DNA from: Pseudomonas sp. BCA17
Lineage (GTDB): Bacteria > Pseudomonadota > Gammaproteobacteria > Pseudomonadales > Pseudomonadaceae
Assembly (NCBI RefSeq): GCF_004519405.1
Contig: NZ_SGWI01000002.1
Location: 124,001-188,000, forward strand
Reading direction: 5' to 3'
Length of the DNA: 64,000 nt
Position numbers and translations under genes: made by a program. The notes under the pieces are model-generated. The model had not been told where the DNA came from and ran no database searches. It saw only the letters and a program-made list of their open reading frames with translations. Positions 41,096 to 45,138 of the stretch are shown in pieces. How positions within the stretch are numbered: position 1 is the first letter of the stretch; every line of letters starts with the position of its first letter.

Positions 41096-41122
41096 GATCG
41101 CTCCCTGCAATGGGGAGCGATC
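41096..41122. terminator. Perfect palindromic terminator between convergent operons
   Basis: GATCGCTCCC and GGGAGCGATC (10 base pairs, 7-base loop) lie between the DUF4197 gene and the 3' end of the halogenase operon and reach the latter's stop codon. It could terminate both directions although T tracts are weak. Confidence 0.6.
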
Positions 41123-41715
41123 TAATGAATGACCGAATCAGCCAGGCGGCCCAACATCAGCGTGGAAAAGCAGCCAACGGCGATCGAAGTAACACGGTTG
41201 ATCCTCAGCGGCGTCATCCAGGTCTTGTTTACCCCGGTAATCCGGCTACCGAACAGAATCCACGCCGACCCCACCGGAATGATGACCAACGCCAGCGTAC
41301 TCATGAAGGCCGCATACCCCTGCAAGGTAACGAAGGCATCCATCGGCGCGATAAATGAAACGATCAACAAGCCCTTGGGGTTCATCACTGTCAGCAAAAA
41401 GAAAGACCGTCCCGAAAAACGGTCGGGGCTTGGGCCGACCACGCTGTTCTTGCGCTGCCACAAGGTGCAGGAAAGAAACAACAGGTAGCAGGCAGCAGCC
41501 AGTTGCGTCGCTTTAATCGCCCACGGCGACCAGGTTGACAGGTAAAGCAGCGCACCGCCCCACACCGATACCTGAAGCAGATAAGCCACGCATTCGATAT
41601 ACGCCAGGCGCCAGGAAGCGGCAAAGCCAAACAACACTCCGGCGCGCAACAACAGGGTGTTGGTCGGGCCAGGCACTACCAGCAACAACACCAATGCAGA
41701 AACGGTCCCAAACAT
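41122..41715 (-). CDS. LysE/RhtB family amino-acid exporter (distal)
   Basis: 197 residues with about six transmembrane helices. The N-terminal VVPGPTNTLLLRAGVLFGF is the PGP motif of LysE/RhtB exporters, and FFLLTVMNPKGLLIVSF the conserved NPK loop. ATG 41715 follows GGGGA. The protein begins slightly nearer the PGP motif than most family members. It is the last gene of the halogenase operon, so it may export the chlorinated product or its metabolites. Substrate cannot be read from sequence. Confidence 0.85.
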   Translation of the reverse strand: MFGTVSALVLLLVVPGPTNTLLLRAGVLFGFAASWRLAYIECVAYLLQVSVWGGALLYLSTWSPWAIKATQLAAACYLLFLSCTLWQRKNSVVGPSPDRFSGRSFFLLTVMNPKGLLIVSFIAPMDAFVTLQGYAAFMSTLALVIIPVGSAWILFGSRITGVNKTWMTPLRINRVTSIAVGCFSTLMLGRLADSVIH

Positions 41716-41763: not shown

Positions 41764-42381
41764 CTACTGCGTCAGCGTGAATGACCAGGCGACCGTCGCT
41801 ATCATCAAAATCGCAAAGCTTACGTTAAGTACCCGGCTCCAAGTGGGATGGATGAACAAGCGGCGCAATTTGCTGCCCGCAAACAACCACAGGAAGTCGA
41901 ACACCACGCAGACCAACAGACAGATCAGCGCCTTCGTCGCTTGTTCCCAGGCTGGCGACGTACCCAGGGTGAAACTGCCCAGTAGCGCGGCAAACGCGGC
42001 ATACGCCTTGATGTTCGCGGCGCCCAGCACGAACCCTGCGCTCCAGCCGGGAGTGACGATTGGCTGCTCATCCTTGATCGGCGGCGCAGTGCCGATGCGA
42101 TAAGCCAACGACAAAATATAAAGGATGGAAATGACCGCCAGCACCGTCGCCACTATCGGAAAGCTGTGCAGCACTACATACAGCCCCGAGGCTACCAATG
42201 TCATGGCAATCACCAGGCCCAACGTAATGCCGATGAAAAACTCAACTGAACGTTTCAGGCCATAAGCGGCGCCGCTCGCCGCCAGTGCCAGGGTCGCCGG
42301 ACCGGGACTGGCAAGCAACGCGATGGCGGCGACGGCAAACGTCAGTGTCGCCTGGTAAACGGAAACGACGGTATCGGGCAT
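41764..42381 (-). CDS. LysE/RhtB family amino-acid exporter (proximal)
   Basis: 205 residues from ATG 42381 (AAAGGAGA upstream). Six hydrophobic helices; ALLASPGPATLALAASGAAYGLKRSVEFFIGITLG carries the PGP motif. GAANIKAYAAFAALLGSF is in the place of the usual NPK loop. It is divergent from the second exporter of the same operon, so the two are not recent duplicates and may form a pair with different specificities. Gap to the SHMT-like gene is 22 bases. Confidence 0.85.
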   Translation of the reverse strand: MPDTVVSVYQATLTFAVAAIALLASPGPATLALAASGAAYGLKRSVEFFIGITLGLVIAMTLVASGLYVVLHSFPIVATVLAVISILYILSLAYRIGTAPPIKDEQPIVTPGWSAGFVLGAANIKAYAAFAALLGSFTLGTSPAWEQATKALICLLVCVVFDFLWLFAGSKLRRLFIHPTWSRVLNVSFAILMIATVAWSFTLTQ

Positions 42382-42403
42382 AGGGGTCTCCTTTGAGAAT
42401 GAC

Positions 42404-43720
42404 TTAGCGAGGCAGCCCGTTTTCATGGCAGTAATAGACCGTTCTGTAGTTCTTCATGAAATCGATCACACCGTTGGCGATCGCCATTGGGTCCTCTTTA
42501 TGCAGCAGCACCTTGGCAATCTGATCGGCTATCCACGCCATTTCCCGCTCTTTCATGCCCAACCGGGTGACTTCGACCGTCCCCAGTCGAATGCCCGATT
42601 CCTTGTAGGGGTCCGTATCCCACGGCAGCGGCATTTCGTTGGCGATGATGTTGGCCGCTTCCAGGCGCTGAGCCGCCTCACGGCCGCTGGCAAAGGGTTT
42701 TGAATCGATGACAATCTGATGGGTGCGGGTGTAGCCCTGCTCCCTGTAAAAGGCGGTCACGCCCCTGCGATCCAGATGCATGGCCAGCGTCTGCGCGTTA
42801 CTCACGACCTGCTTCATGTAGGCCTGCCCGTACTCCAGCATCTCGGTGGCGGCCACTGCGAGTGCCGCCACCCGGTTGATTTGGTGGCTACCGGTCAGGG
42901 TAGGGAAAATCGCTTCATGCACAGGTGCAGTCAACGCAGCGTCGTTCCACAGGATCACACCGCCCTGGGGACCGCTGAACGTCTTTCCGGAAGAGCCGGT
43001 CATCAGGTCCGCCCCCTCCGCCAGCGGGTCCTGGAACAGCCCCGCACTGATCAGGCCCAATTGGTGGGCGGCGTCGAAGTAGACCTTTCCACCCCAGGGT
43101 GAAACGATGCCTTTGATATCCGCCACCGGCAGAGGAAACAGGGTCAGTGTCATGCCCAGGCCAATCACGGCAGGCTTCAGGGTTTGGGCAACTTCGCCAA
43201 AGCGCGTGAGATCGATGTCCGCCGTCTTATGCACGAAGGGAATGTCCCAGACCTTGAGCCCACGCACACCGGGCGGGCCATTGGTTCGATTGCTGGTGTC
43301 GCCTCCCCTGATCACCGGTACGGTCATGACATTATCCTGGGGGCGGGTCAGCGCCGTGTACGCCGCCAGTACGGCTGCCATGCCGCCCATCAGGCGATGA
43401 TCGGCTTGCTGGGCGCGCAAGGTGATTTTCAATAATTCCACGCAGAGCGATTCCAGCTCGTCGATATTCTTCATGCCGGAGAAAAACCGGTTGTCGCGCC
43501 CGATATGCCCACCCGAAGCACGCATGCCGACCTCGCTGGACAGCAGAGCGCGCACGGACGGGCTGGTGGGTGACTCGGCGGCCACAAGGTTGATGCACTG
43601 CTGCCCGCGCCACTGTTCGTTACGAACCACCGCCGCCCGAACCAGATCAGCCATGGCAGCGTGCGATTGCGCCTGTTTGAGTAATGTATTGGCGTGCTGC
43701 AAGCAGTGAATATCGTGCAT
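42404..43720 (-). CDS. SHMT-like PLP enzyme of the halogenase operon
   Basis: 438 residues from ATG 43720 (GGGA upstream). Fold-type I PLP enzyme related to serine hydroxymethyltransferase: LVAAESPTSPSV (cf. SHMT IASENYTSPAV), FDAAHQLGLISAGLF with D216 and H219, and the internal aldimine Lys K246 in TGSSGKTFSGPQGG (cf. TTTTHKTLRGPRGG). The canonical Tyr after SEN and the His before the PLP Lys are replaced (Pro and Gly), so it is unlikely to be the housekeeping, folate-dependent SHMT. Retro-aldol, transaldol or elimination chemistry on the halogenated amino acid is inferred from its neighbours. Confidence 0.8.
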   Translation of the reverse strand: MHDIHCLQHANTLLKQAQSHAAMADLVRAAVVRNEQWRGQQCINLVAAESPTSPSVRALLSSEVGMRASGGHIGRDNRFFSGMKNIDELESLCVELLKITLRAQQADHRLMGGMAAVLAAYTALTRPQDNVMTVPVIRGGDTSNRTNGPPGVRGLKVWDIPFVHKTADIDLTRFGEVAQTLKPAVIGLGMTLTLFPLPVADIKGIVSPWGGKVYFDAAHQLGLISAGLFQDPLAEGADLMTGSSGKTFSGPQGGVILWNDAALTAPVHEAIFPTLTGSHQINRVAALAVAATEMLEYGQAYMKQVVSNAQTLAMHLDRRGVTAFYREQGYTRTHQIVIDSKPFASGREAAQRLEAANIIANEMPLPWDTDPYKESGIRLGTVEVTRLGMKEREMAWIADQIAKVLLHKEDPMAIANGVIDFMKNYRTVYYCHENGLPR

Positions 43721-43752
43721 AGCTATCATCCCGTGGGTGCATTTGCGGTGTT

Positions 43753-44517
43753 CTATGCCAGGTTTTTTGCGGCCTCTGCGTGCTGGTCTTCCCACCAACG
43801 GTCATTGCCGTGCAGGTTTCTGGACAGATCTTTTTCAGCCGCCCACGTCATGTTGAGGATGATGCGCGTGGCGTCTTCATTCAGTGGGATCGTGCGGTGC
43901 AGGGTGGTGTCCGTGCGCAGGAAATAGATATCTCCTGTCTTGAAGCCATAGGTGGCAATCGGATTACTGCACAGCAATTCATGAATCCTGGGGTTGGATT
44001 TATCCCATGAGGTATGCGGCACACATTGCAACATGCGGCCCTTGGCGATAGGAGGCGTCTCGATAATCCAGATCAACGCGAAACTGTAGTCACCCCAATG
44101 CCAACCATGGGTATCGCCTTTGCGTTCCTGCCTGGTAATCAGGTATTCCTCGTCCTGGGACACGGACGCGACGATCTGCGTGTCGGCGATCAACGACAAG
44201 GTGCCGAGCAGCACTTCGGATTTGGACAGCGCACCGATCAATGGGCTGTTCTCAGCAATAAACTCACTGCGCACCACACTCATATAGCGCGGTGTGTTGT
44301 CGGTCGTCGCCAGGTGCAGATCGCGGCGTTCGAGTTGACGGTCGATCAAGCTGTGGACATCTGCGGTGATTACTTCGCGCAATGAATCATCGACAATATC
44401 GCGCAACTTTATAAAACCATTACGCGAAAACTCATTACGCAGCGCGAACACTCTTTTTTCAGAAAAGTTATCAGCATGGTGTTGTTGCAGGCGTGCTTCA
44501 TCAAGTACGTAGTTCAT
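43753..44517 (-). CDS. Fe(II)/2-oxoglutarate amino-acid halogenase, BesD/Hal family
   Basis: 254 residues from ATG 44517 (GAGGGA upstream). The iron site is H140-W141-G142 with distal H207 (TTLHRTIPL): Gly stands where hydroxylases have Asp/Glu, leaving room for chloride, as in the radical halogenases BesD and HalA-E that chlorinate free amino acids. Residues I recall as important in BesD (R74, E120, H137, G139, D140, H204, N219, T221, W238, W239) all recur here at a constant offset of +3: R77, E123, H140, G142, D143, H207, N222, T224, W241, W242. Substrate is likely Lys, ornithine or a related amino acid, but this is inference. First gene of a four-gene operon. Confidence 0.88.
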   Translation of the reverse strand: MNYVLDEARLQQHHADNFSEKRVFALRNEFSRNGFIKLRDIVDDSLREVITADVHSLIDRQLERRDLHLATTDNTPRYMSVVRSEFIAENSPLIGALSKSEVLLGTLSLIADTQIVASVSQDEEYLITRQERKGDTHGWHWGDYSFALIWIIETPPIAKGRMLQCVPHTSWDKSNPRIHELLCSNPIATYGFKTGDIYFLRTDTTLHRTIPLNEDATRIILNMTWAAEKDLSRNLHGNDRWWEDQHAEAAKNLA

Positions 44518-44682
44518 TTCAATCCCTCGACAATAGAACAATTTAAAACAACAGCACAGTACTGCGCATGACTGCACGCAAAAACCACAGACAAGATATT
44601 TTAAAAAAACCATTCTTTTCTTAAGGATCTATGGTATGTAAGATTCTTCACGCTATTCTTCACTATTCGTAAGGTCAAACTA
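44518..44682. promoter_or_regulatory. Divergent control region of the halogenase operon
   Basis: 165 AT-rich bases between the halogenase and Lrp-family genes, which are divergently transcribed. It includes the direct repeat ATTCTTCAC at 44643-44651 and 44655-44663 (12-base period) just upstream of the regulator gene, and A/T tracts. These are plausible Lrp-type binding sites; no single promoter stands out. Confidence 0.55.
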
Positions 44683-45138
44683 ATGAAAAAGCTTACAAAG
44701 AGCGGCCAGACGTTAGACCCTATTGATAGCGCTCTGATTGTTGCTCTTCATCAGAACGCACGTACGTCCATACGCGCGCTGGCCCGCCAGGTAGGCCTGT
44801 CCGCACCGGGTTGCAGCGAGCGCATGAAGCGCCTGGAGCAGGCAGGCATCATTGTCGGGTTCAGTGTAGAGCTCGGCGCCGAGGCATTGGGGTATGCGTT
44901 GCAGGCGTTAGTCAGAGTTAAACCATTGCCGGGGAAGTTTCAGGAAGTGGAACAGCTACTCGCAGACATGACTGAATGCGTGGTGTGCTACAAAATAACC
45001 GGAGAAGACAGTTTTGTTTGCCATCTTTATACCGATTCGGTAGGCCATTTGGACCTGACATTGCAGAAAGTCACACCACTGGCCGACACAAACACATCAA
45101 TTATTAAAACTGTCGTCAGGAAGCTGCCCACTCTCTAA
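44683..45138 (+). CDS. Lrp/AsnC family regulator of the halogenase operon
   Basis: 151 residues. N-terminal winged helix-turn-helix (LDPIDSALIVALHQNARTSIRALARQVGLSAPGCSERMKRLEQAGIIVGFSVEL) and a C-terminal RAM ligand-binding domain (LQALVRVKPLPGKFQEVEQLLADMTECVVCYKITGEDSFVCHLY). It is divergent from the halogenase operon and probably controls it in response to an amino acid. Confidence 0.9.
   Translation: MKKLTKSGQTLDPIDSALIVALHQNARTSIRALARQVGLSAPGCSERMKRLEQAGIIVGFSVELGAEALGYALQALVRVKPLPGKFQEVEQLLADMTECVVCYKITGEDSFVCHLYTDSVGHLDLTLQKVTPLADTNTSIIKTVVRKLPTL

Follow-up and report, generated by a model that had tools for sequence, protein, structure and literature searches.

The window, meaning the whole stretch of 64,000 nucleotides from Pseudomonas sp. 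BCA17 that was analysed, has a predicted halogenase gene that is followed by an SHMT-like gene and two LysE-type genes and is faced by a divergent regulator gene. The genes and features of this locus are listed below.

41122..41715, minus strand: LysE-type exporter 2; weaker Pfam match (19.9 bits against a cut-off of 25.6)
41764..42426, minus strand: LysE-type amino acid exporter 1, with a likely start at 42381 after a Shine-Dalgarno-like AAGGAG; Pfam
42404..43729, minus strand: SHMT-fold PLP enzyme, 441 aa (438 aa from the ATG at 43720), likely PazB-like and ring-closing; Pfam, alignment, and model
43753..44517, minus strand: BesD/HalA-clade Fe(II)/2-oxoglutarate halogenase, 254 aa, likely PazA-like; Pfam, NCBIfam, alignment, tree, and AlphaFold model
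44518..44682, no strand: divergent intergenic region between halogenase and regulator, 165 bases, AT-rich (35% GC)
44683..45138, plus strand: Lrp/AsnC-type regulator, divergent from the halogenase; Pfam and NCBIfam

The SHMT-like protein scored 139.5 bits against PF00464 (SHMT family), and its closest homologs are most often listed at 438 aa. The distance from the halogenase stop to the SHMT-like start is 23 bases (start at 43729) or 32 bases (start at 43720). The intergenic region is presumed to hold the promoters of both the halogenase and the regulator.

The regulator, halogenase, SHMT-like gene, and first LysE gene are present in all eight of the loci L003-L008, L024, and L025, which have an intact halogenase; the Lrp frame of L003 is short. 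The second LysE gene was found in only part of the related loci (four of the eight named Pseudomonas/Paraburkholderia loci). All six Legionella loci exhibit a divergent LysR-type gene, halogenase, SHMT-like gene, and LysE-type gene in that order, where the LysR and LysE assignments come from Pfam in L016 and from clustering or tblastn in the other five.

Halogenase assignment and predicted substrate

The initial annotation had described the minus-strand open reading frame at 43753-44517 as a BesD/Hal-type free-amino-acid halogenase. This position and identity are supported by the Pfam match, residues, tree, and model, with catalysis being predicted. PF23169 (Pfam HalD) scored 301 bits against a cut-off of 26, and positions 2-227 of the 228 in the profile were covered. 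The NCBIfam BesD equivalog NF042920 scored 319.4 bits, which is under the model cut-off of 450; judged by this model, the halogenase is a member of BesD's clade and a different enzyme. The phmmer search against PDB gave the highest scores to HalA (9oer) and BesD (6nie), followed by lysine hydroxylase, HalB, and HalD. The AlphaFold model (pLDDT of 86.9) has BesD 6nie and HalA as its top PDB matches with TM of about 0.9, and the identity to HalA (9oer and variants) is 53-56%.

The HWG iron motif that had been claimed is present, with the iron site H140-x-G142...H207 in which Gly replaces Asp/Glu and H207 is the distal histidine. The halogenase has 445 protein relatives at E <= 0.001, and the loci also belong to cyanobacteria, Legionella, Paraburkholderia, and others, so that the family is larger than the few Pseudomonas and Streptomyces named at first. 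Among the best 120 of these 445 homologs, the position of G142 is Gly in 120/120; the Asp/Glu that the initial annotation had named as contrary evidence is absent. H140, H207, I149, N222, T224, E123, H137, D143, D239, W241, and R218 are unchanged in all of the same best 120 of 445, and R77 is kept in 119 of them.

A hydroxylase reading is rejected, as the window has the halogenase-type residue at each of G142, I149, and N222. The lysine hydroxylase 9oet has Asp at the column of G142, and Gly142, Ile149, and Asn222 of the window fall in the columns of hydroxylase residues D142, N149, and V223. According to the available part of PMC13244439, substitution of Gly, Ile, and Asn for Asp142, Asn149, and Val223 turned a hydroxylase homologue into an enzyme that mainly chlorinates. 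At both positions that are altered in the HalA variants I151N and N224V, the window also has the wild-type halogenase residue (I149 and N222).

Several observations were made on other PF23169-like proteins. The homologs P0002, P0016, P0019, and P0035 (66-88% identity) have been deposited as 'ArpA protein', a name with no evident link to halogenation. The genome of the window has a weak second PF23169 match (L002, C25:54352-55008, 36.8 bits) in a 329-aa open frame. Weak matches of this kind are common across Pseudomonas genomes and may belong to another Fe/2OG family.

The alignment with BesD that had been proposed as a check was gapless to 6nie over residues 25-251, where 126 of the 227 residues are identical. 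From 23 positions that were compared with BesD, 22 are identical and K120 differs (Ser in the window). Ten active-site residues had been described as lying at a constant offset of +3 from BesD. This offset holds only where the iron histidine is 137, and we take a BesD numbering of that kind to be its source. In the numbering of PMC13244439, in the part available, the offset is 0. The same part of that paper gives D239, D143, E123, R77, H137, and W241 as the lysine contacts of BesD in simulations, and all six have the identical residue and number in the window. The iron site and lysine contacts are the same as those of BesD (6nie), the L-lysine 4-chlorinase of the beta-ethynylserine pathway.

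The halogenase tree (55 rows) came from a rapid maximum-likelihood search, in which SH-aLRT was the only support measure and long branches were flagged. The partial halogenase matches (L048, L050, L056, and L057), L049, L055, and the genome-search loci L058-L079 were omitted from this tree. The BesC-like labels on 24 of the 55 rows were set by hand, and a later tblastn census agreed with them. The window falls within a set of 28 rows with a support of 99 that contains BesD, HalA, the hydroxylase, and sequences from cyanobacteria and Legionella, but neither HalB nor HalD. Only the window's clade groups with BesD and HalA among the named Pseudomonas loci in the tree. HalA groups with two Actinomycetota sequences on a branch that neighbours the window's branch. 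The SHMT-type pair needs two changes on this tree, where one origin and two origins are both possible.

The substrate of the halogenase is probably L-lysine with chlorination at C4, where C4 over C5 is read from the clade and residues. The amino acid had been left open by the initial annotation. It is less open than earlier thought because the alignment with BesD is gapless and the six checked lysine contacts are kept, and L-lysine can be predicted from these contacts together with the grouping with BesD and HalA.

The accessible text of PMC8407142 reports that chlorolysine is produced by SwHalB and PfHalA, that PkHalD uses ornithine, that PrHalE uses Leu, Ile, and Nle, and that kinetics were measured for the lysine halogenase PfHalA. 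PfHalA, which by its prefix is presumably from P. fluorescens, is perhaps an ortholog of the window gene. The activity of these family members on ornithine or hydrophobic amino acids (PMC8407142, same part) would allow the halogenase to use another amino acid (ornithine or leucine) next to unrelated neighbours. However, the six lysine contacts are kept, the tree separates the window from HalD, and an SHMT-like partner is present in all 21 intact-halogenase loci of the two branches concerned (15 from the Pseudomonas/Paraburkholderia branch and six from the Legionella branch), and we regard this alternative as very improbable. The specific readings of an ornithine (HalD) or HalB-like enzyme are rejected on the tree and residues.

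A separate Pseudomonas branch of halogenase relatives consists of L051, L054, and L075-L077 with 34-36% identity. L051 and L054 keep HWG and have other substrate residues altered (for example, N222 and T224 are both Ser). Neither an SHMT-like nor a BesC-like partner was seen at these five loci.

The SHMT-fold neighbour

The model of the SHMT-like enzyme (pLDDT of 88.0) exhibits the SHMT fold, and the nearest structure is the M. jannaschii SHMT (4bhd/4uqv) with TM of 0.80-0.93 to these chains. The enzyme keeps the PLP lysine as K249, while the catalytic Glu is replaced by Gly73 and the PLP-stacking His is replaced by Asp144. Among the best 120 of 2772 homologs, residues 73/144 are Gly/Asp in 39 and Glu/His in 79; of the other two, one has Asp/His and one has a gap at 73 with Asp144. 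In a wider alignment, K249, D219, H222, and R381 are invariant in 53/53 Gly/Asp sequences and 79/79 Glu/His sequences; the host SHMT paralogs L087 and L088 were left out of the wider alignments. The catalytic Glu is replaced in all 15 halogenase-linked copies that were aligned, by Gly in 14 and by Ser in one Legionella copy. All six Legionella copies have Asp144, with Glu replaced by Gly in five and by Ser in L020.

In T. thermophilus SHMT, as described in the available part of PMC10397204, Glu53 is the proposed general base for the beta-hydroxyl chemistry, His122 stacks on PLP, Tyr51 lies at the phosphate, Tyr61 and Ser31 lie at the substrate site, and Arg358 lies at the carboxylate. Glu53, His122, Tyr51, Tyr61, Ser31, and Arg358 map to Gly73, Asp144, Ala71, Phe83, Ala51, and R381, respectively, in a mapping that was made through the host GlyA (L089) and not by direct alignment. 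The window enzyme is like GlyA/SHMT in the fold, PLP lysine, pyridine Asp, and carboxylate Arg, but unlike it in the replaced equivalents of Glu53, His122, Tyr51, Tyr61, and Ser31.

A canonical SHMT is rejected for the neighbour on the loss of the catalytic Glu and stacking His. The host genome has five further SHMT-family genes, and therefore the neighbour is not needed as the host SHMT. The change from His to Asp alone is not diagnostic because an Asp likewise occupies this position in L091, another SHMT paralog of the host. The PLP core is kept, the beta-hydroxyl machinery is lost, and a lysine-type halogenase adjoins in the loci of these branches, and for these reasons the substrate of the enzyme should be one without a beta-hydroxyl, with 4-chloro-lysine as the candidate.

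A large SHMT-like group (mostly P0160-P0241) was also observed among the homologs, in which Glu/His are kept and the Tyr and Ser substrate residues are changed. Those members that carry a source name (P0207, P0234, and P0238) are labelled as Chloroflexota-type bacteria.

Proposed pathway and relation to the paz locus

We propose that the halogenase chlorinates free L-lysine at C4 and that the SHMT-fold enzyme then expels the chloride and closes a cyclopropane. We consider this proposal to have a good probability. From Fe(II), 2-oxoglutarate, O2, and chloride, a chloroferryl species would arise at H140/H207, with G142 leaving room for the chloride. R77, E123, H137, D143, D239, and W241 would hold the lysine, which would be converted to 4-chloro-L-lysine, by analogy with BesD and HalA. 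In the PLP enzyme, an aldimine would form through K249, R381 would bind the carboxylate, and the alpha proton would be removed. The alpha carbanion would then displace the C4 chloride to give 1-amino-2-(2-aminoethyl)cyclopropane-1-carboxylic acid. The lost SHMT general base and stacking His would fit a substrate that lacks the beta-hydroxyl, and Asp144 might, speculatively, hold the side-chain ammonium. The bond labilised by SHMT corresponds in L-amino acids to the one between C-alpha and C-beta, and removal of the alpha proton from an L-amino acid would therefore need a changed geometry. Judging by family and position, the LysE-type proteins may export the product and the Lrp-type regulator may control the operon.

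The chloride is taken to be the leaving group for the PLP enzyme because the pairing of the partners and the lost Glu/His point to this. The SHMT-like neighbour had been missed when the halogenase gene was taken alone, and its presence suggests a cryptic role for chlorination, as a step of activation.

The proposed ring closure resembles a described system. In Pseudomonas azotoformans, lysine is reportedly chlorinated at C4 by PazA, and the PLP enzyme PazB is said to close a cyclopropane, giving pazamine. We take a paz locus to be a lysine halogenase and a PLP enzyme side by side, and both are present in this arrangement in the window. The locus in the window is most probably of the paz kind and a copy of the described pathway, with PazA presumed to belong to this halogenase clade and PazB presumed to be SHMT-like. 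PazA/PazB and the window are alike, judged by gene content, in having a lysine radical halogenase and a PLP enzyme in fluorescent Pseudomonas. They are unlike in that the Paraburkholderia and Legionella copies are not known from the paz work. The reference list of PMC13185094, in the part available, cites Sosa et al. 2024 (10.1002/anie.202319344) on PazA/PazB.

The PLP enzyme might instead carry out a gamma-elimination of the chloride without ring formation, which would give 3,4-dehydrolysine, a vinylglycine-type inhibitor of other PLP enzymes. Sequence alone does not separate the two outcomes; the residues and context fit both, and the loss of the beta-hydroxyl machinery suits any chemistry with a gamma-leaving group. 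BesB is a PLP enzyme as well. The available part of PMC10187165 describes chloride as the leaving group in the elimination by BesB, which is a precedent. Against this stands the product of PazB. That product is reportedly a cyclopropane, and we consider the elimination unlikely.

The chlorine might also be kept, with the SHMT-like enzyme acting as an aldolase/transaldolase on another substrate and the chlorinated amino acid being exported. The SHMT fold includes threonine transaldolases, and the fluorothreonine transaldolase model TIGR04506 scored 217 bits, far below its cut-off of 650. However, the Glu that is the proposed general base (PMC10397204, available part) is lost in 15/15 halogenase-linked copies (14 Gly and one Ser), and no aldehyde-making enzyme was found among the eight window proteins scanned, which leaves this alternative quite improbable.

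Partner genes, distribution, and history

The tblastn census of 77 loci (L003-L079) identified an SHMT-like partner in 21, a BesC-like oxidase in 34, neither in 22, and both in none. These 77 loci are not independent, as many are near relatives; L049/L078 and L055/L079 have the same scores and are apparently the same loci in two collections, and the 22 loci from the genome search (L058-L079) are only 3.3-3.7 kb long. The BesC-like partner is a haem-oxygenase-fold diiron oxidase, and PF14518 was confirmed by Pfam on four oxidase loci (L011, L023, L030, and L046). The partnerless loci include four decayed copies of the window cassette (L049, L055, L078, and L079) and the Actinomycetota loci L021 and L022, which neighbour HalA in the tree. 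The SHMT-like and BesC-like partners do not cover the whole halogenase family. At loci with a visible partner, either a BesC-like or an SHMT-like enzyme seems to carry out the step that follows chlorination. In the protein tables, 11 halogenase/SHMT-like pairs (such as P0016/P0131) have longest contigs of equal length, which is no more than suggestive of linkage, as the Glu/His-type protein P0230 has such a length as well.

No BesC-like gene was found by tblastn in the 21 SHMT-type loci (3.7 kb examined for seven of them), and no BesC-like diiron oxidase was found among the eight window proteins scanned. According to the available part of PMC10187165, BesC and BesB are the pathway partners of BesD, whereas the window has an SHMT-like PLP enzyme and no diiron oxidase was found in that scan. 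The Bes-type alkyne (beta-ethynylserine) pathway is rejected, as no BesC-like gene was found in the DNA searched at the SHMT-type loci. Downstream of the halogenase in the Rhodobacterales loci L038, L041, and L042 lie two genes that resemble methyltransferases, an assignment made by eye on the L038 sequences, and these loci are possibly a third kind of pathway.

The available main text of PMC8407142, PMC10187165, and PMC13244439 has no mention of hydroxymethyltransferase, SHMT, Legionella, Burkholderia, or azotoformans. In the literature searched, no report of the halogenase/SHMT-like pair was found beyond the Sosa reference, and we do not claim that the pair is absent from print. Three points may be new: that the pair recurs in Paraburkholderia and Legionella, that it excludes the BesC-like partner, and that its PLP enzyme has the two-residue Gly/Asp signature.

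The intact window clade is carried by eight of 398 Pseudomonas genomes with 83-100% identity, the genome of the window included. In the phylum sample, four of 398 genomes had a match of any kind at E <= 0.001, as did four of 369 genomes in the class sample; each of these counts includes the window's own genome, and the others have 19-35% identity. The G+C content is 52.5% for the halogenase, 52.2% for the Lrp gene, 35% for the intergenic region, and 60.0% for the SHMT-like gene, against 59.6% for the window. The cassette lies between RND and plsB neighbours in L003-L006 and L025, as in the window, and the surroundings of L007, L008, and L024 differ from those of the window.

Decayed cassettes were observed in L055, L079, L049, and L078, where the halogenase is truncated, the SHMT-like gene is missing, and the LysE genes are wholly or partly kept. 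Two of these remnants also lie between RND and plsB: L055 has a truncated halogenase and has lost the SHMT-like gene, and L049 has a halogenase fragment, a piece of the first LysE gene, and the second LysE gene. The whole cassette has likely been gained and lost.

A broader reading is that a lysine halogenase and an SHMT-fold cyclopropanase form a mobile two-enzyme module for ACC-like amino acids beyond Pseudomonas (Burkholderiales and Legionella), with LysE-type export and Lrp/LysR regulators, where the coupled Glu loss and His to Asp change mark the turn from SHMT to ring closer. We give this broader reading an even chance. If it is true, the Glu loss together with the His to Asp change would let the module be found in any genome. 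With the pair also in Legionella and Paraburkholderia, one would ask what role such an amino acid has in these bacteria. If the proposed pathway is right, the residue signature would separate probable ring closers among PLP enzymes from the many genes that carry a serine hydroxymethyltransferase annotation. The window would then also supply a further enzyme pair with which plain lysine could be turned into chlorinated and cyclopropane amino acids.
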